The notes under the pieces: generated by a model | The model's database searches: none | What the model saw: the letters and a program-made list of their open reading frames with translations, nothing else | Told to the model about the DNA's origin: nothing | In this document: positions 47,145 through 57,542 of the stretch, piece after piece | Position numbering within the stretch: the stretch's first letter is position 1 | Layout of the letters: every line of letters starts with the position of its first letter | Position numbers and translations under genes: made by a program | Source of the DNA: an uncultured Clostridia bacterium | Lineage (GTDB): Bacteria; Bacillota; Clostridia; Oscillospirales; Acutalibacteraceae | Direction of reading: 5' to 3' | Assembly: GCA_946407065.1 (NCBI GenBank) | Contig: CAMJMQ010000001.1 | Span: 1-64,000, forward strand | DNA: 64,000 nucleotides

Positions 47145-47247
47145 CTCTTTATGTTATTCTGCGATCGGTGAAATCGCAAACTTCACAAGCCATCCGTTTT
47201 TCTGTATAACATAGTCAAAAGCAGAAGATACAGAAAGGATGAGACTT

Positions 47248-48405
47248 ATGGCAAAGAGAAAAAGAGGCTACTCGCTGTACTTCAACAAACAGCGCAACAG
47301 GTACGTCGGACAGCTGAAATGTGAGATTTTCGGCGAGGAGAAGCGCAAAAGCTTTTACGGCAGGACCAAGGGTGAAGTCAACGAGAAAATCAGTGACTTC
47401 AAGCGCCGCCTGAAAGCGGGCGAGTTCAAGGTCGTCGAAGAGGAGGATCCGTCAGAGACGATCACCCTGCATGAGTTGGCAGAGAAAATCATTGAGGATC
47501 AGCATGATCTGAATGAGATCTCCGATTCGACCTACGACCGCAAATGCGAAACGCTGAAAAAACTCGCGCCCATCGGCAACATAAGGATCAAGGATATCAC
47601 CGAGGATACGGTCAAAAAGTTCCTGATCACCCAGATGGGCTACTCACAGTCCATCATCAACAAGGTTTATCAGATGCTGAAAGGAACGCTTGACGAGGCT
47701 GTCCGAAAGAAGTATATCACCGAGCATCCGATGATCAGCATCAAGAAACCCAAGACCAAGCAGGAGAAAGTTAAGGTTCGCGCATTGACGCTCGCTGAGC
47801 AGAACGAACTGCTCGACATCCTGAAAACGAAGAAGGTCCTATACGGCGATCAGATGCTGCTGTCGATGTTCACCGGTATGCGGATGGGCGAGGTCAACGC
47901 GCTGGATATCAGGGACGTCGACTTCAAGCACGGCGTGATCACCGTGAACAAAACCGTTTCGCTCAACACCTTCAAGGTGGAATACATCCGAAAACGGACA
48001 AAGACTGCTGCCGGTATGCGCCGACTGAGAGTAAACGATGAGGTGCTCGCCTTTCTTCGGAAGGTGATCGGAGATCGGACAGAGGGACGCGTGTTCTCGA
48101 CCAAGCAGGGCGGGATCGTCAGCACCAATAAGGTGAATTGCAGTTTTTCACGGCTGATAAAAGGATATGATGTGATCGATCCGTATGTCGACGGAAAGGT
48201 CGACCTCCACAGTCTCAGGCATACCTACGCGACGCGCTGTATCGAGGGCGGTATGCCGCCGCAGGTGCTGAAGCGGATCCTCGGTCATACGGATATCACG
48301 GTGACGATGAACACCTACTGCGATACCTTCGACCCCTACGCGGATGAGCATATCATCAAAGCCGACTGCTATATGAAGGACAAGAATCTTTCAATAATGA
48401 ATTGA
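47248..48405 (+). CDS. int: tyrosine integrase 3
   Basis: A 385-residue tyrosine recombinase, a close relative of integrase 2 (shared KTAAGMRRL, VDLHSLRHTYATRCIEGGMP and more). It has the complete catalytic set: Arg in FTGMRMGEVNALD, H-x-x-R in HSLRHTYATR, His in LGHTDITVT and Tyr in NTYCDTF. No excisionase or transfer gene accompanies it, so it may be the last trace of another element or act in trans. ATG 47248 is favoured over 47239 by the spacing from AAAGGATGAG. Confidence 0.92.
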   Translation: MAKRKRGYSLYFNKQRNRYVGQLKCEIFGEEKRKSFYGRTKGEVNEKISDFKRRLKAGEFKVVEEEDPSETITLHELAEKIIEDQHDLNEISDSTYDRKCETLKKLAPIGNIRIKDITEDTVKKFLITQMGYSQSIINKVYQMLKGTLDEAVRKKYITEHPMISIKKPKTKQEKVKVRALTLAEQNELLDILKTKKVLYGDQMLLSMFTGMRMGEVNALDIRDVDFKHGVITVNKTVSLNTFKVEYIRKRTKTAAGMRRLRVNDEVLAFLRKVIGDRTEGRVFSTKQGGIVSTNKVNCSFSRLIKGYDVIDPYVDGKVDLHSLRHTYATRCIEGGMPPQVLKRILGHTDITVTMNTYCDTFDPYADEHIIKADCYMKDKNLSIMN

Positions 48406-48493: not shown

Positions 48494-48799
48494 TTACTGA
48501 AGAATAATGTGTATATAGTTCGTTCTTGCATCCCTGATACGGATAACACGGATAATATCATTGTCGATTTTATAAAACGCGATATGCTGATGGATAATCA
48601 AATACCGTATATCTGTATCTCGGTCAACTTTACCGCTCAACTCTGCGCCGAGCTTTGGATTTTCCTTTAACAGAGCACAGCTTTTCAAAATCTTCTGTGA
48701 AATGTTTTCAGCAGCCGATGGATTTTGTAAGTCATCGCGGATATACGCTTTTATCTCTCTCAGATCAGCCCTCGCCTGTGGCGAATAAATCAGCTTCAT
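48494..48799 (-). CDS. relE: RelE/ParE family toxin
   Basis: A 101-residue toxin: MKLIYSPQARADLREIKAYI, NPSAAENISQKILKSCALLK, GAELSGKVDRDTDIRYLIIH and the terminal IRVIRIRDARTNYIHIIL with late Arg residues typical of RelE/ParE. Either an mRNA-cleaving RelE or a gyrase-poisoning ParE; sequence alone does not decide. It overlaps the antitoxin gene by 4 nt, the usual arrangement. Confidence 0.9.
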   Translation of the reverse strand: MKLIYSPQARADLREIKAYIRDDLQNPSAAENISQKILKSCALLKENPKLGAELSGKVDRDTDIRYLIIHQHIAFYKIDNDIIRVIRIRDARTNYIHIILQ

Positions 48800-49113
48800 T
48801 CGCTCACACCGAATTCAGCGAGCATATCTTCTTCCGAAATCCAATCACTTTCAGATTTTGCAGAATCCTCACCGGCTTTCAACTCAGCCATCAACAGCGC
48901 AATCGCCTGTTCTCTGAGCACCTTGTCGCCGTCTTTTGTCATCAAGAACGGCAGACCGCCCACGTTAAGTGTCTGTTGTAAAAAGGCATTGAACGCTTCT
49001 GTTAAGGTCAATCCGCAATCAGCTAAAATCCCTTCAACTTCCTTTTTAACTTCGGGATTTATCCGTGCTTGAAAGGTTGATGTTTTCGGTGCGTTTGCAA
49101 CATTGATACTCAT
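48796..49113 (-). CDS. relB: RelB/DinJ family antitoxin
   Basis: A 105-residue antitoxin. The N-terminal ribbon-helix-helix (TSTFQARINPEVKKEVEGIL, ADCGLTLTEAFNAFLQQTL) binds the operon promoter; the acidic C-terminal part (SESDWISEEDMLAEFGVSE) would wrap the toxin. Start ATG after AAAGGGG. With the toxin it forms a type II stabilisation module, often found next to mobile elements, as here. Confidence 0.9.
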   Translation of the reverse strand: MSINVANAPKTSTFQARINPEVKKEVEGILADCGLTLTEAFNAFLQQTLNVGGLPFLMTKDGDKVLREQAIALLMAELKAGEDSAKSESDWISEEDMLAEFGVSE

Positions 49114-49572: not shown

Positions 49573-49790
49573 TCAAGCCGGCTTATCACATTTATTTCTT
49601 TGCTGATTCAGCAGATCGCTCATCACATTACATCCGAAAGCCGTCGCTTCTTTGAATTCGTGAGCATAAACAGATAAGGTTACATTTCCATTGATATGAC
49701 CAACGATGTTTGAAATCGTCGTGATGTCAACGTTGCTATGAATCAAATTAGTTAAGTCAAGTGAAATGCTACATGAATGATTGGAATCAG
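49573..49790 (-). pseudogene. C-terminal remnant of a tyrosine integrase
   Basis: The last 60 codons read LDLTNLIHSNVDITTISNIV, GHINGNVTLSVYAHEFKEAT, matching the end of tyrosine recombinases (H-x-x-R region lost, G-H-x-N...Y-A-H kept). The N-terminal two thirds are missing. It belongs to a different family from the three intact integrases. Confidence 0.65.
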
Positions 49791-49910
49791 AAGCAGAAAA
49801 AAGAGGATGGAGCTCACGCCCCATCCTCCAGAGGAATTTCAACGATACGTTTACATGATGCAAATAAACGCATCGTCTAAATGATGAAATCTAAAGAACT
49901 TATTTAGCTA

Positions 49911-52900
49911 TCAGACATACTCATTGATCGGGAATTTGACCTTGACACCGGCTAAGTAGCGCTGGATCAATGTCACGTCAATGATAGTTACTTCTCCATC
50001 GCTGTCAACATCCGCCGCCTTGATCTGCTTATCGGACAGATTGCCCATCGAAAGCAGATAGCGCTGGATCACGGTCGCGTCTGTAATCGTGACCACACCG
50101 TCGCCGTCGACGTCGCCCAGCAGGACGATATTGTCCACAGTGGTCTCCGCGTCGGTGAGCTTTTCGAGGGTCTCAGGTGTAACAAGAGCCTTCTGGTCGT
50201 CGGTCAGCGCTTCATAAGCCTGTCTTGCCGCCTCGATCTGCTCCTCGTCATCGACGGTCACGTCGGTCGGCAGGGCGTTGATCATATCCTCAACAGCCTT
50301 TGCAGCCTCGAGGTCTCTGATCATATCCTGAGCCTTGAACAGCTTGTCGATAGCGCTGAACGTGAGATAATCCGCCTGTGCGGGAGTGAGGTTCAAACGC
50401 GCCTCGTTTGCCGCGTCAACAGCCGCCTTATCGGCAAGGGTGATCTCGGTCGGCAGAGCGTTGATCTGATCCTCTACAGCCTTTGCGGCCTCACGGTCAG
50501 CGATTACTTCCTCGGCGTCTTCGAGCTTTTCAACAACGCTAAGGTCAATCAGGTCTTTCTGCTCGGGTTCGAGTGCGTCGTAAGCGGCGCGAGCGTCTTC
50601 TACGTCAGCCTTATCCTCGAGAAGAATGACATCGGGCAGAGCGTTAATTTTGTCCTCAACAGCCTTTGCAGCCTCGAGGTCTCTGATCATATCCTGAGCC
50701 TTGAACAGCTTGTCGATAGCGCTGAACGTGAGATAATCCGCCTGTGCGGGAGTGAGGTTCAAACGCGCCTCGTTTGCCGCGTCAACAGCCGCCTTATCGG
50801 CAAGGGTGATCTCGGTCGGCAGAGCGTTGATCTGATCCTCTACAGCCTTTGCGGCCTCACGGTCAGCGATTACTTCCTCGGCGTCTTCGAGCTTTTCAAC
50901 AACGCTAAGGTCAATCAGGTCTTTCTGCTCGGGTTCGAGTGCGTCGTAAGCGGCGCGAGCGTCTTCTACGTCAGCCTTATCCTCGAGAAGAATGACATCG
51001 GGCAGAGCTTTGATTTTGTCCTCAACAACCTTTGCGGCTTCGAGGTCTTGGATTTTATCCAGTGCGTCCAGGAGATCGTCAAACAGGTCGCCGTCAAGCA
51101 AAAATACCTGATCGTCGGTGAGTGCACCAAAAGCGTCGTATGTCGCGTTAACAGCGTCCTTGTCGTTGAGGGTGATGTCCTCAACTGCGGGCAGAGCTTT
51201 GATCATGTCCTCAACAACCTTTACGGCTTCGAGGTCGGCGATGGCTTTCTCAGCGGCAGCCAACTTTTCGAGGGTCTCAGGTGTAACAAGAGCCTTCTGA
51301 TCGTCGGTCAGTGCGTCATAAGCCCGTCTTGCTTCTTCTACGGTCGGCTTGTCGTCCAGGGTGACCTCGCCCAGCGCGTTGATCTGATCGGTCACAGCCT
51401 TTGCAGCCTCAAGATTCATGATCGCTTTTATCGCTTCTCCGAGCTTACCATGGGTGTCGAGAGTAATATATTCCACCTGCTCGAAGGTCAGGTTATCAAG
51501 AGCTTCGACAGCGGCGTCAACAAGCGGCTTGTCCGCGAGAGTGATCTCACTTGCGGCGGGCAGCGCGTTGATCTGGTCGGTAACAGCCTTGGCAGCCTCG
51601 CGGTCGGCGATGACCTTCTCGGCGGCTTCGAGCTTAGCGATGGAATCGTTATCTATGAGCGCCTTCTGATCGTCGGTCAGCGCGTCGAATGCGGCTCTTG
51701 CCGCCTCCACGTCTGCCTTATCGTCGAGAGTGACCACATCGGGCAGGGAGTCGATCTTGTCATCAACAGCGTCGGCAGCGTCCTGATCAATGGCCTCGGT
51801 GAGGGCAGCCTCGGCGTCGGTGAGCTTGCTCAGCGTCTCCGCGTCGATAAAGCTCTGTTGATCGTCGGTCAGCGCGTCATAAGCGTTTCTCGCCGCTTCG
51901 ATCTGCTCCGAGTCGGCGAGGGTCACGTCGGTCGGCAGGGCGTTGATCAGGTCGATCACGGCGGTGCTCTCGGCGGGAGGATTGCGCTTGGCAAAGATCA
52001 AGCCGTTATACCAGTCGTCGCCGCCCTGTCCGTCGGGACGGAAGTAGATATTGTAGGAGCCGTCTGTCGGGAAGCTCATGTTATTGCCCATGCCGTCGGG
52101 GAACCATTTCTTGCCCTTGCCCGGCTCTGCGTAGACGATCTTGATCTCGTCGGACGCGGTCAGCGCAAGGTCGTTGAGCATATACTCGCCCTCGACCGCG
52201 GGGTTCGCGGCGAGCTTGTAAGCGGGGTCGATCGCCCAGTTGTTCATGGTGCCCACGACATAGTAGCCCGCCTCATACTTCGCGACAGCGTCAAAGGTCG
52301 CGGTGTACTCAACGTCGCCTGTGACAGCAACAACTTCAGGAGTCCAGCCCGCGAAGGTATAGGTGAAGTCGTCGTCCTCGTCCTTCTCGGGAGTAGTGCC
52401 GTTGTACTCGGGCATATCGCCGTAGTAAACTGTAGTTGTGTCAATTGTGGCACCATCGTCGTTCAGCCAAGTGACAGTATAGCTCTTAGGAACATCATGG
52501 ATAGTGTCTTCCTTCTGAATATTGTAATCTACAAGTGTTTTAGTATCTTCAAGCTCCTGACCGGCATAAATCAATCTTTGCTGTGCGGCAGGAATTCCTA
52601 ATTCGTCGGCTAAGTCCGCCTTGATCTGTGCGATTGTTGTATTATTGGTTACCGTCAGGTTGTAAGAACTACCTTTGGGTGTTTTGATGATAACGACGTA
52701 CTTCTTAAAGCTATCAAATACGGCGGTATAGGTCACGTCGCCTGTGACAGCGCTAACCTCGGGAGACCAGCCCTTGAAGGTGTAGATATAGTCGCCGTCC
52801 TCGTCCTTTTCGGGAGTAACGCCGTTGTACTCGGGCATATCGCCGTAGTAAACTGTAGTTGTGTCAATTGTGGCACCATCGTCGTTCAGCCAAGTGACAG

Positions 52901-54560
52901 TATAGCTCTTAGGAACATCATGGATAGTGTCTTCCTTCTGAATATTGTAATCTACAAGTGTTTTAGTATCTTCAAGCTCCTGACCGGCATAAATCAATCT
53001 TTGCTGTGCGGCAGGAATTCCTAATTCGTCGGCTAAGTCCGCCTTGATCTGTGCGATTGTTGTATTATTGGTTACCGTCAGGTTGTAAGAACTACCTTTG
53101 GGTGTTTTGATGATAACGACGTACTTCTTAAAGCTATCAAATACGGCGGTATAGGTCACGTCGCCTGTGACAGCGCTAACCTCGGGAGACCAGCCCTTGA
53201 AGGTGTAGATATAGTCGTCGTCCTCGTCCTTTACGGGAGTAGTGCCGTTGTACTCGGGCATTGTACCCTGAGCTACATTCTCGTCGGTCTCGAGAACGGT
53301 CTCGCCGTTCTTCCATGTGACGGTGAAGGTCGGAGCCTCGGTGGGAGCCTCGGTGGGAGCGTAGTCGACTACAAGATTGCCGGTCAGCTCGCCTTTTCTG
53401 ATAAAATAGTTATACGCACTAGAATTTGAATAACCGCTTACAGTTAGAACAACATCTTTATCGGTATCCCAATTACCCCTTTCACCGATCGTCAGCGCGG
53501 TGTCACCCATTGTAATGGCAATATCCGACGCGTTGAAGGCAGTTCCGTTGGGTACGATAACACTAAACGCTACAGCCCAGTCATTATCATCAGGTTCATT
53601 TAAAATGTTATATGCAACGCCCTTTTCGGCATATACATCCCAGTTATCCTTTTCCACATCAAAGAACTGGGGCGTGACATTTACATCGAATGCGTCGATC
53701 AACGCGTCGGTGCAGGTCAGGGTGTAGGTGGGAGCGGCAGGAGCGTTCGCGCCTGCGAGGGTGATGGTCTTTGCATCATGGTCTGCCGATTCAACGTAGA
53801 AAGCGTTTCCTATTGCGTCGTCGACGAAAGGCACAAAATCATATCCCTCCATCCATTCCTGGAAACACAAAATGCCATCATTAGTAACGACCATGAACAT
53901 ACCGCTCTCAGCGGTGGAATCCGCATCGTAAGCTGAAGTGCCATCCGAATAGTCGGCGAATGTTCCGGCTTTCAGAGTAATTGTGTATTCACAATATCCA
54001 TCTGTAAGACTTTCGATACCACTGACAATATAGTCGCCGGTATTGAGTTCCGAAACATCGTGTTCGCCGCTGTTGTAGATCGTGCCGCCCTCCGCGCTCG
54101 CAGGAGCATGACCGCCGAGGGTGACTGTGCGGTTTTCAGTGTCATTGGAAAGGACATACCATTTGTCTGATATATTACCTTCTGCATCAAGAGGATAATA
54201 CTCATGCTGATTTTCATCAGCAGTCATTACAATCATTTTTGGACCGGAAGCATCTCGAGTTATACTTATCATTAGAACTTGTCCTTTTTGGAACTCAAGA
54301 TCATCTGCTTGAGGTTCAAAACCTAATCTCTCTCTGTAAGTATCGCCTTTAATGATAACGGAATAACCATAACCGCTTAAATTAAAATAGTTGCCGTACG
54401 TAGCAGAGAGTGTGTCCCCTGCGGCAAGCTCATCGAGCGATATGCCACTACCATCGACATAATCCGCCGCACTCGCCGAGATCGGAACCACGGTGAACAA
54501 GCTGACGATCATCATAAAGACCAGCAGAATACTGACGGGTTTTCTAATTTTTTTCATCAT
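49911..54560 (-). CDS. giant secreted dockerin protein with two ubiquitin-like domains
   Basis: 1549 residues from ATG 54560 (GGAGG 11 bases upstream). Order: signal peptide (about 1-32); two beta-rich unknown modules (33-390); InlB/Flg_new-like repeats at about 400-475, 551-618 and 692-758 (YTFKGWSPEVSAVTGDVTYT); ubiquitin-like domains at about 478-550 and 619-691 (TIAQIKADLADELGIPAAQQ, RLIYAGQELEDTKTL, DYNIQKEDTIHDV); a carbohydrate-binding-like module at about 760-860 (GYYVVGTMNNWAIDPAYKLA); ten about 61-residue three-helix repeats (866-1475); and a C-terminal type I dockerin (GDVDGDGVVTITDATVIQRY and a second Ca loop). It is exported and should dock to a cohesin. The ubiquitin-like parts lack a di-glycine end. 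Confidence 0.85.
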   Translation of the reverse strand: MMKKIRKPVSILLVFMMIVSLFTVVPISASAADYVDGSGISLDELAAGDTLSATYGNYFNLSGYGYSVIIKGDTYRERLGFEPQADDLEFQKGQVLMISITRDASGPKMIVMTADENQHEYYPLDAEGNISDKWYVLSNDTENRTVTLGGHAPASAEGGTIYNSGEHDVSELNTGDYIVSGIESLTDGYCEYTITLKAGTFADYSDGTSAYDADSTAESGMFMVVTNDGILCFQEWMEGYDFVPFVDDAIGNAFYVESADHDAKTITLAGANAPAAPTYTLTCTDALIDAFDVNVTPQFFDVEKDNWDVYAEKGVAYNILNEPDDNDWAVAFSVIVPNGTAFNASDIAITMGDTALTIGERGNWDTDKDVVLTVSGYSNSSAYNYFIRKGELTGNLVVDYAPTEAPTEAPTFTVTWKNGETVLETDENVAQGTMPEYNGTTPVKDEDDDYIYTFKGWSPEVSAVTGDVTYTAVFDSFKKYVVIIKTPKGSSYNLTVTNNTTIAQIKADLADELGIPAAQQRLIYAGQELEDTKTLVDYNIQKEDTIHDVPKSYTVTWLNDDGATIDTTTVYYGDMPEYNGVTPEKDEDGDYIYTFKGWSPEVSAVTGDVTYTAVFDSFKKYVVIIKTPKGSSYNLTVTNNTTIAQIKADLADELGIPAAQQRLIYAGQELEDTKTLVDYNIQKEDTIHDVPKSYTVTWLNDDGATIDTTTVYYGDMPEYNGTTPEKDEDDDFTYTFAGWTPEVVAVTGDVEYTATFDAVAKYEAGYYVVGTMNNWAIDPAYKLAANPAVEGEYMLNDLALTASDEIKIVYAEPGKGKKWFPDGMGNNMSFPTDGSYNIYFRPDGQGGDDWYNGLIFAKRNPPAESTAVIDLINALPTDVTLADSEQIEAARNAYDALTDDQQSFIDAETLSKLTDAEAALTEAIDQDAADAVDDKIDSLPDVVTLDDKADVEAARAAFDALTDDQKALIDNDSIAKLEAAEKVIADREAAKAVTDQINALPAASEITLADKPLVDAAVEALDNLTFEQVEYITLDTHGKLGEAIKAIMNLEAAKAVTDQINALGEVTLDDKPTVEEARRAYDALTDDQKALVTPETLEKLAAAEKAIADLEAVKVVEDMIKALPAVEDITLNDKDAVNATYDAFGALTDDQVFLLDGDLFDDLLDALDKIQDLEAAKVVEDKIKALPDVILLEDKADVEDARAAYDALEPEQKDLIDLSVVEKLEDAEEVIADREAAKAVEDQINALPTEITLADKAAVDAANEARLNLTPAQADYLTFSAIDKLFKAQDMIRDLEAAKAVEDKINALPDVILLEDKADVEDARAAYDALEPEQKDLIDLSVVEKLEDAEEVIADREAAKAVEDQINALPTEITLADKAAVDAANEARLNLTPAQADYLTFSAIDKLFKAQDMIRDLEAAKAVEDMINALPTDVTVDDEEQIEAARQAYEALTDDQKALVTPETLEKLTDAETTVDNIVLLGDVDGDGVVTITDATVIQRYLLSMGNLSDKQIKAADVDSDGEVTIIDVTLIQRYLAGVKVKFPINEYV
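50287..51018. repeat. nearly identical 366-bp tandem duplication
   Basis: Within the helical-repeat region, the stretch from 50287 reappears shifted by 366 bp (122 residues, two three-helix units) and appears identical over almost its whole length. It points to recent unequal crossing-over. Confidence 0.8.
52340..53190. repeat. 423-bp tandem repeat carrying the ubiquitin-like domains
   Basis: Copies offset by 423 bp (141 residues); the ubiquitin-like segments are at 52488-52706 and 52911-53129 and look identical at the DNA level. By eye they are AT-richer than the flanking coding DNA. Only the linking Flg_new-like parts carry a few differences. Confidence 0.85.
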
Positions 54561-54954
54561 TTTTTTGCTTTCCTCCTTTAGGAATTTTTTAGTTTGATTT
54601 AACTGTTTTCTTTGGGTCTGTCCGCTGACCGTATACAAAAGTATACCGGACATCGGCGGGTCACAGCCGTTTGCAGGGAAGGCGCGGGGAAGAGCGCCGT
54701 GAACAACCGAACAAAGGAAAACAAAAGTTAACGGAATAGGGGCACGCGCCCGGACAGTCGGGAGAGCGTACCGGTCTCTCAATAACGTACAAAGTCTTTT
54801 CACATAATAAATCTTTTTTATTATATCATACAAAATTTGTTCTATATTTACAATATGGAATATTCCGCGTTCGCTTCTATTGTCGCATATGTCAAAATTT
54901 CTAACTATATTTAGTTGTTTCGCATAGGTGGATTCGGGAAATAAATACATATTC

Positions 54955-56093: not shown

Positions 56094-57542
56094 ATGAAAA
56101 AGAACAACATCATCAAAAGAAGAGTAATCGCGGCGGTACTTTCGGCAATCACCGTATTTTCAGTAGGAACCATGGCGACAACCTCAGCCTTTGCTGCAGA
56201 GACCCGCGTCTCAGCCGGTACCACGATCACTAACGATAACAAGCTGAGCTTTGACAGAGATCTGCTCCAGGTCAAAAACATCTCCTCCTCCACACTTTTG
56301 AAGGTGCTGGAAGGCGTCACAAAGCACGGCAAATACGCGTGTCCCTTCATCAGCGGTATGCTGGACGCCTTCATTGAAAAGCCCGAGGAAAGAATCGAAA
56401 AGAAGCTCACCGAGCTCAGCGACAAGGTCGACAAGATTTTTGACAAGCTGGATGCTTCCGAGGCTTCGATTAAGACAAAGATCTCCAACGATCTCGGCGT
56501 ACAGAGCTTTTACAATGTATTCATCAAGTTCAAGACCGCTACCGAGAACATGAATAAGAAAATCAACGATATCTATGCGAGCAATCTTTCCAACGCGGAC
56601 AAGATCGCTAAGATCGCCAGCCTGACCGGTAATTATAACGAGTGGAGATCCAAGTTTGAGGATGTACTGGGCGAGCTGAACAGCTTCTGCGAGAAGCCCT
56701 CCATGACAAAGGACGGCAATATCTTTGAGCTTGCTTACAACTACCACACCAACTCGGTGATGTTCAGCGGCGAAGCACTCGACAAGGCAAAGCCCGTATG
56801 CAATCATGTGCTGCAGGTTTACGCCGCGGGATGTGCGACCCTGATGGAAAGCCTTGCCGCTCAGGTATGCTACAACAACCTGTCCGATGAAGCGAAGGCA
56901 ACCGTGAACCCCGAATTTGCCGCTCACATCTGCAAGGACGCAAACGATATCGAGAAAGAGATCAAGACCGTATCCGTCTTCTTGACCGGTGAGGAAAACG
57001 GTAAAAACGAAGACACCATCAAGGGCATGTATGATAAGCTGATGAACACCCCCAGAAATATCTTTGTCAACAAAGGACACGACAACACTCAGCTTGCCGC
57101 ACAGCTCAAGATGCGCAACCACAAATCAGCTTACGCGGACGGAAAATACCGTAATTACAAGGCAAAAGACGTTGCGAACGAGTTCAATAACGATTTAACA
57201 AAAGCCACGTTGACCTGCGACAAAGCTAAAGCGCTGGCGGATTACGCAAAGGCAAAGGATATCTCCATTCGCAAGCTGCTCGAAAACAACGGCATCAACA
57301 CTGCCAATCTCCCCAAAGGCACGAACCTTGTGACCGCAAAAGCGTGGGATGGTTCCATCTCTAAAGCCACCTGTGCTGTGGGCTACAATTACCAGAAAAC
57401 CTATTACAAGGGCGTGAACATTGACGCGAAGGGCGCAGACCAAACAGACATTCAGATCCTTGACTGCGGCTACAACTCCTGGAATTTTTCGGAATGGGGC
57501 TATTCCATCGGCGGCAACGCGTGCGCACTGGCTGTCAAATAA
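56094..57542 (+). CDS. secreted helical protein of unknown function
   Basis: A 482-residue exported protein. Signal peptide: NIIKRRVIAAVLSAITVFSV, cleaved after AFA-AE. The mature N-terminal part is alpha-helical (VTKHGKYACPFISGMLDAFI then a coiled coil LTELSDKVDKIFDKLDASEA). This arrangement recalls the helical domain of pore-forming toxins such as Cry-like proteins, but no diagnostic motif supports it. The C-terminal 60 residues are Tyr/Trp/Gly-rich (NYQKTYYKGVNIDAKGADQT, YNSWNFSEWGYSIGG), possibly a small beta module. AAGGAGG precedes the ATG. No dockerin or sortase signal. Two terminators follow. Confidence 0.6.
   Translation: MKKNNIIKRRVIAAVLSAITVFSVGTMATTSAFAAETRVSAGTTITNDNKLSFDRDLLQVKNISSSTLLKVLEGVTKHGKYACPFISGMLDAFIEKPEERIEKKLTELSDKVDKIFDKLDASEASIKTKISNDLGVQSFYNVFIKFKTATENMNKKINDIYASNLSNADKIAKIASLTGNYNEWRSKFEDVLGELNSFCEKPSMTKDGNIFELAYNYHTNSVMFSGEALDKAKPVCNHVLQVYAAGCATLMESLAAQVCYNNLSDEAKATVNPEFAAHICKDANDIEKEIKTVSVFLTGEENGKNEDTIKGMYDKLMNTPRNIFVNKGHDNTQLAAQLKMRNHKSAYADGKYRNYKAKDVANEFNNDLTKATLTCDKAKALADYAKAKDISIRKLLENNGINTANLPKGTNLVTAKAWDGSISKATCAVGYNYQKTYYKGVNIDAKGADQTDIQILDCGYNSWNFSEWGYSIGGNACALAVK

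Follow-up and report, generated by a model that had tools for sequence, protein, structure and literature searches.

Introduction

Ubiquitin is a hallmark of eukaryotes. The closest described bacterial system is BfUbb of Bacteroides fragilis, which according to PMC5705921 and PMC3352274 is exported and has a mature form that begins at ubiquitin residue 1 and lacks the terminal glycine; the title of PMC3352274 calls this homologue unique. Both sources also describe BfUbb as a free protein of 76 residues that has a cysteine at its C terminus and a toxic effect on other strains.

The gene analysed here lies in a stretch of 64,000 nucleotides, hereafter called the window, from an uncultured Clostridia bacterium. 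Like BfUbb, it encodes a bacterial ubiquitin of eukaryotic type with no terminal Gly-Gly; by eye, its protein also starts with a stretch resembling a signal peptide. In contrast to BfUbb, the window gene has its ubiquitin inside a dockerin protein, in two copies with B repeats on either side. We regard the window gene as a variant of the exported ubiquitin known from B. fragilis; a literature search excluding subscription papers and preprints had no title on dockerin-borne ubiquitin among the matches listed.

Other known systems resemble the window gene in part. The window domains share the PF00240 family and the fold with eukaryotic ubiquitin and largely keep its Ile44 face, and, like the integral ubiquitin-like domains of the Rad23 type, they are embedded in a larger protein and have no conjugating tail. 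Unlike either of these, they are bacterial and their export is predicted; their identity to human ubiquitin is about 51%. As in cohesin-dockerin proteins (PF00404, PF00963), a type I dockerin is found at the C terminus and cohesins are encoded in the genome, whereas ubiquitin as the cargo sets the window gene apart from other dockerin proteins. The gene also differs from InlB in that its B repeats alternate with two ubiquitins; to our knowledge, InlB itself has no ubiquitin domain. The likeness to B-repeat surface proteins of the InlB type lies in the B-repeat fold (2y5p; PMC8900821).

Results

Organization of the ubiquitin-dockerin gene

The gene is a single open frame on the minus strand, with the following features.

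49911..54560, minus strand: whole gene, 1549 codons plus stop; open frame, Shine-Dalgarno sequence, ATGATG start at 54560
54572..54579, minus strand: Shine-Dalgarno sequence AAAGGAGG, 11 bases upstream of ATGATG
54468..54560, minus strand: signal-peptide-like N terminus MMKKIRKPVSILLVFMMIVSLFTVVPISASA, recognized by eye; probable cleavage before ADY
53328..54467, minus strand: N-terminal region, no family over the cut-off
53124..53327, minus strand: B repeat 1, resembling B repeats 2 and 3; no Pfam match on its own
52908..53123, minus strand: ubiquitin domain 1 (Ub1), by PF00240, AlphaFold and Foldseek
52701..52907, minus strand: B repeat 2, InlB type
52485..52700, minus strand: ubiquitin domain 2 (Ub2), by PF00240; same DNA as Ub1
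52278..52484, minus strand: B repeat 3, resembling B repeat 2
51978..52277, minus strand: 100-residue module
50124..51977, minus strand: repeats of about 61 residues, no family over the cut-off
49914..50123, minus strand: type I dockerin; PF00404 at 49953-50120, E 1.5e-15

The order of modules from the N terminus is thus N-terminal region, B, Ub, B, Ub, B, 100-residue module, repeats of about 61 residues and dockerin. Ub1 and Ub2 are internal (residues 481-552 and 622-693), being neither at the mature N terminus nor a free protein. The sequence-only reading had placed two tandem ubiquitin-like domains at 52488..53129; this span does cover both domains and there are indeed two copies, but it also takes in the B repeat between them, so that the copies are interleaved with B repeats and are not directly tandem. 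The dockerin module that it named is matched by PF00404 at the C terminus. Its "carbohydrate-binding-like" module (here 51978-52277) stayed without a Pfam match when the threshold was relaxed to E 1. Of the 161 genus genomes, 13 have stretches related to the N-terminal region (53328..54467). An open reading frame on the plus strand (51048-52601) overlies the repeats of the ubiquitin-dockerin gene and was taken for a mechanical shadow rather than a gene.

Because Ub1 and Ub2 are identical in all 216 bases, with a copy spacing of 423 bp, a recent duplication of a 423-bp unit is indicated; B repeats 2 and 3 differ at 33 of 207 bases. The GC content at third codon positions was 0.42 in the ubiquitin domains, 0.64-0.71 in the flanking B repeats and 0.47 in the N-terminal region. 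The low value of the ubiquitin domains is compatible with a separate origin, but only weakly so, given the similarly low value of the N-terminal region. The InlB-type B-repeat fold was present in all three flanking repeats; PF09479 stayed below its cut-off (12.2 bits vs 27 for B repeat 2, and no match for B repeat 1). The InlB B repeat is described as a beta-grasp without the helix in PMC8900821, and the folds of the flanking B repeats and of ubiquitin are related.

The domains belong to the ubiquitin family

PF00240 was the best family for the protein (E 3.6e-41; 139.2 bits against a cut-off of 25.4, in two stretches), with 75.8 bits for each of Ub1 and Ub2. The predicted structure has the ubiquitin beta-grasp fold (AlphaFold, pLDDT 93.0), and in Foldseek the single ubiquitins among the matches listed align to the predicted domain at 0.6-1.0 Å. 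The window domains therefore belong to the ubiquitin family, as proposed from the sequence. A chance likeness is ruled out by the E-value; the PF00240 profile matched in 0 of 14 control genomes. A different bacterial beta-grasp family is ruled out by the best family match together with the fold comparison. The NCBIfam rad23 model reached 71.7 bits, far under its cut-off of 207.3.

Over the alignable positions 2-70, the identity to human ubiquitin was 0.51, in keeping with an earlier count by hand of about 35 of 69. The sequence also agrees with that count's residue assignments: I44, H68, V70, K27 and K63 are kept, and the substitutions L8P and K48Q are present. In addition, R42 is kept and Q49 is replaced by E. 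The chain after V70 reads PKSYTV, with no Gly-Gly to be freed, just as the sequence-only reading had stated. Since this tail is gone, conjugation is excluded so far as known chemistry reaches. The genome gave no match to the E2 (PF00179) or UCH (PF00443) families, but neither family gave a match in any control.

The domains were probably acquired from a eukaryote. Such a gain, raised in the sequence-only reading, fits the 51% identity to eukaryotic ubiquitin and, weakly, the third-position GC. From the tree (91 rows, 74 columns; 2 of 82 inner branches starred) no named eukaryotic donor was resolvable.

A second ubiquitin gene, dockerins and cohesins in the same genome

A profile search of the window's genome found 56 dockerin matches and 3 cohesin matches over the cut-off, and the dockerin of the window gene was the top scorer among the 56. 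The protein thus has a type I dockerin and cohesins are encoded in the same genome, which places it in the cohesin-dockerin group. Further dockerin genes lie on the window's contig, as far as 277 kb off.

The genome has a second ubiquitin gene (C10:19325-19540, 106.8 bits; L141 7203-9275, G000:C10), which encodes a signal peptide, a short spacer, a ubiquitin ending in LRLRGE, a long middle part and a dockerin. Its ubiquitin, near the N terminus behind the short spacer, is better conserved than the window domains.

Several neighbouring features of the window were also recorded. A phage-type integrase is encoded at 47239-48405 (PF00589, E 4.1e-22), and a short integrase-like fragment, under the cut-off (E 0.0047), lies directly behind the ubiquitin gene at 49573-49863. 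Two small overlapping open reading frames at 48494-49113 resemble a RelBE-like toxin-antitoxin pair, by eye only, and 56094-57542 encodes a protein of 482 residues for which no Pfam family exceeded the cut-off and which begins like a signal peptide. As regards mobile carriage, the domain region had no match at the DNA level in a plasmid collection, a design-A protein (defined below) had none in a phage collection, and a PHROGs search yielded nothing useful.

Relatives and their designs

The sequence-only reading had suggested a search for the same module in other Ruminococcus secretomes, and modules of this kind were found in related genomes. With the window's own genome counted in each sample, PF00240 matched in 33 of the 161 genus genomes, 20 of 398 in the family sample (19 of these over the cut-off), 5 of 394 in the order sample and 5 of 398 in the phylum sample (4 over the cut-off). 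We call the arrangement with ubiquitin at or near the mature N terminus design A, in which respect it resembles BfUbb, and the internal arrangement of the window gene design B. Sorting by design covered the 30 genus loci that were fetched besides the window's (L001 and L004-L032), further match places among the 33 genomes being excluded; 23 were of design A and 7 of design B (L025-L030 and L032). The family sample added L039, L041 and L043, giving ten loci besides the window's with an internal ubiquitin and at least one flanking B repeat. In G149, window-type B repeats flank further modules that appear leucine-rich-repeat-like by eye.

Signal peptides were called by a script with a simple rule of hydrophobicity and cleavage motif rather than by a dedicated signal-peptide program. 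By this rule the 23 design-A loci of the genus comprised 10 direct cases, 10 with a short spacer and 3 that were hydrophobic without a clear site. The wider samples, scored with the exclusion of frames under 60 bits and of design B, gave 14 direct cases and 1 with a spacer among 15 frames. A dockerin directly behind the ubiquitin was seen by eye in L005, L006, L008, L009, L010, L013 and L014.

In a public genome collection, 401 stretches matched; a relative is encoded by 328 of them, and 80 were retained. The script scored 85 frames from this collection: 56 were direct, 8 had a spacer, 4 were hydrophobic without a site and 17 had no signal peptide. The titles include those of ruminant-gut MAGs and, without a MAG tag, of records such as Dyella sp. 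OK004, Conexibacter sp. CPCC 206217 and Pseudohaliea rubra DSM 19751. Some broad-scan rows without a signal peptide look like contamination, which is likely for L096 (four ubiquitins in one frame) and perhaps applies to L095, L097, L112 and L119. In two large protein searches the best 120 rows were mostly eukaryotic polyubiquitins and B-repeat proteins. On this sequence evidence, predicted-exported ubiquitin is not limited to B. fragilis, the sole bacterium in which it was so studied in the literature found.

A further arrangement, design C, consists of four tandem small open reading frames with the leader LSEEELELVIGG in G252, 3 of which passed the PF00240 cut-off. At this locus (L142 6497-8003; G252:C22, same family), the leader, bacteriocin-like and of the double-glycine type by eye, is fused to ubiquitin-like domains, two of which end in LRLMG or LRLRG, and the open reading frames sit between housekeeping genes. 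They are perhaps leader-exported ubiquitins.

Other small forms were observed. L092, L117 and L137 (Dyella), without a MAG tag, encode hardly more than a signal peptide and ubiquitin, and L092 ends in Gly-Gly. L118, L125 and L128 have paired neighbouring ubiquitin paralogues with no visible signal peptide and a common tail with GVVTYQ, of which L135 has one copy; these paralogues were found in MAGs labelled Acidimicrobiales or Bifidobacterium breve.

Selection on the ubiquitin of design A

Over the 21 pairs formed by seven ubiquitin-dockerin loci, the mean pS and pN were 0.674 and 0.039 for ubiquitin and 0.657 and 0.402 for the part behind it. In nine loci with a long middle part (36 pairs), the values were 0.387 and 0.065 for ubiquitin and 0.504 and 0.286 for the rest. 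Ubiquitin is thus the most constrained part of the gene in design A and is under strong purifying selection. For distant pairs, this signal could be mimicked by repeated transfer from eukaryotes, the ubiquitins of which are alike. Close pairs were compared where the flanks could be aligned, and most show a low pN in ubiquitin: 0.000 vs 0.043 in the flank for L001/L088 and 0.000 vs 0.083 for L073/L074, with the exception of L080/L088 (raw pN 0.018 vs 0.015, pS 0.24 vs 0.06). From these comparisons, ubiquitin's own sequence appears to be under selection in the bacteria with design A.

The core and other surface are kept in the design-A loci L042, L044, L045 and L047, but nearly all of the Ile44 face is lost (patch 0 to 0.22). 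Their Ile44 face looks as if it had been remodelled.

The Ile44 face of design B

The ubiquitin patch (nine positions) and core (17 positions) used here follow lists known from the ubiquitin literature. Across the 11 design-B loci, the identity to human ubiquitin was 0.84 in the patch, 0.44 at the 43 other exposed positions and 0.57 in the core (permutation p 0.0016 for the patch contrast). Within residues 40-70 alone, the patch contrast was 0.84 vs 0.62 (p 0.072). In 11 rows of designs A and C of equal overall identity (0.52 vs 0.53), three of them from one locus, the values were 0.35 in the patch and 0.50 in the rest. The difference between design B and these rows was reached by 0 of 20,000 shuffles, which is not a probability because the rows are related. 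The window domain is among the lower design-B rows, keeping 6 of 9 patch positions (0.67; L8P, K48Q and Q49E lost) vs 0.45 elsewhere. When the window is counted twice, all 12 design-B rows keep H68, G47 and K27, and all 12 lack K29, K33 and R74-G76.

The substitution rates of design B give a different picture from its patch. The close loci L028, L029, L030 and L032 have 19 non-synonymous vs 4 synonymous codon states, with no purifying selection, and in 36 design-B pairs ubiquitin evolves hardly more slowly than the next B repeat (pN 0.223 vs 0.256). In the tree, nine design-B rows form a group, with a support of 66, that also takes in one design-A row; neither L026 nor the two rows of the window belong to it. 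Design B may lack a single origin, the tree being poorly resolved. In the same four close loci, the pS of the internal ubiquitin was 0.02-0.05 vs 0.21-0.35 for the following B repeats. The design-B ubiquitin module may travel between species independently of its flanks.

Discussion

We propose, with about even confidence, that a ubiquitin derived from eukaryotes has been reused in the window gene as a non-conjugating extracellular binding module on a predicted-exported dockerin protein. The signal-peptide-like start would direct export, and the dockerin would bind a cohesin, either that of a scaffold or one at the cell surface. The B repeats would be connectors that keep the ubiquitins outward and off the surface. 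A protein partner would be gripped non-covalently by what this protein keeps of the Ile44 face (R42, I44, A46, G47, H68 and V70). The recent doubling of the module would increase avidity. Our guess is that the partner would most likely be eukaryotic, from a plant, fungus or protist being digested or encountered in a gut community, and that it might be, for example, a ubiquitin-binding protein; a bacterial partner is possible. Design B, with its patch kept and its tail lost, fits best with non-covalent gripping through the Ile44 face. Ubiquitin's own sequence appears to matter in related bacteria, given that no other part of the design-A genes is as constrained.

The strongest alternative, although an unlikely one, is that the ubiquitins are passive spacers, very stable beta-grasp beads that can be swapped with B repeats and that lengthen a surface stalk. 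The related fold of the flanking B repeats fits such beads, as do the evolution of design-B ubiquitin at roughly the B-repeat rate (pN 0.223 vs 0.256), the 19 non-synonymous vs 4 synonymous states in close relatives and the lack of a significant patch contrast in the C-terminal half (p 0.072). However, design B keeps the Ile44 face that equally diverged domains of designs A and C lose, and a spacer needs no such face; moreover, most B-repeat proteins among the matches listed have no ubiquitin in Pfam's list, so stalks manage without it. The sequence-only reading had left the choice between a host- or protist-facing decoy and a stable adhesion module; the retention of the Ile44 face favours binding, though not conclusively. 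An assembly or contamination artefact, in which a eukaryotic ubiquitin stretch was misjoined to a bacterial gene, is practically refuted for the domain. Contamination-like rows do occur in the broad scan (rows without a signal peptide, and L096 with four ubiquitins in one frame), and the identity of Ub1 and Ub2 makes the copy number less sure than the domain. But both domains sit within one open frame that begins with a bacterial signal-peptide-like stretch and also encodes a dockerin, and the contig carries further dockerin genes. An internal ubiquitin with one or more B-repeat flanks recurs at ten other loci, and an identity of 51% is too low for a recent copy from a eukaryote.

It is rather improbable that the displayed ubiquitins are an antibacterial weapon that harms competing bacteria as BfUbb does. 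The exported BfUbb acts as an inhibitor of other strains of B. fragilis (PMC5705921), an oyster ubiquitin without the two C-terminal glycines is reported to be bacteriostatic (review PMC10892293), and a relative from the same family (G252) has small ubiquitin open reading frames behind a leader that is bacteriocin-like by eye. In contrast to the free 76-residue BfUbb, the window domains sit inside a 1549-residue dockerin protein and are only about half identical to ubiquitin. Mimicry directed at an animal host, with the displayed ubiquitin acting on receptors such as CXCR4, seems very improbable. Extracellular ubiquitin has immune effects, as the review PMC10892293 relates, and there are ruminant-gut records among the named relatives; the same review states, however, that CXCR4 activation has been challenged. 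Exported ubiquitins are also found in Dyella and in a pond MAG, which have no obvious animal tie, and tethering a soluble ligand by a dockerin would be an odd design.

Returning to the reading of the ubiquitins as extracellular binding modules, a broader form of it would be that gut Firmicutes run extracellular non-covalent ubiquitin recognition, in which ubiquitin displayed by dockerin proteins at the cell surface or on a scaffold seizes eukaryotic ubiquitin-binding proteins or a bacterial receptor. We offer this broader form tentatively, as possible but on balance doubtful. Within one genus, 33 of 161 genomes have ubiquitin-family domains, which in some cases belong to dockerin proteins, and the ubiquitin sequence of one design is under strong purifying selection. 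What reads ubiquitin outside a bacterial cell is thereby made a testable question. If the broader form is true, bacteria in general would use exported ubiquitin as a tool, in N-terminal, internal and leader-peptide arrangements, and BfUbb would be one special case.
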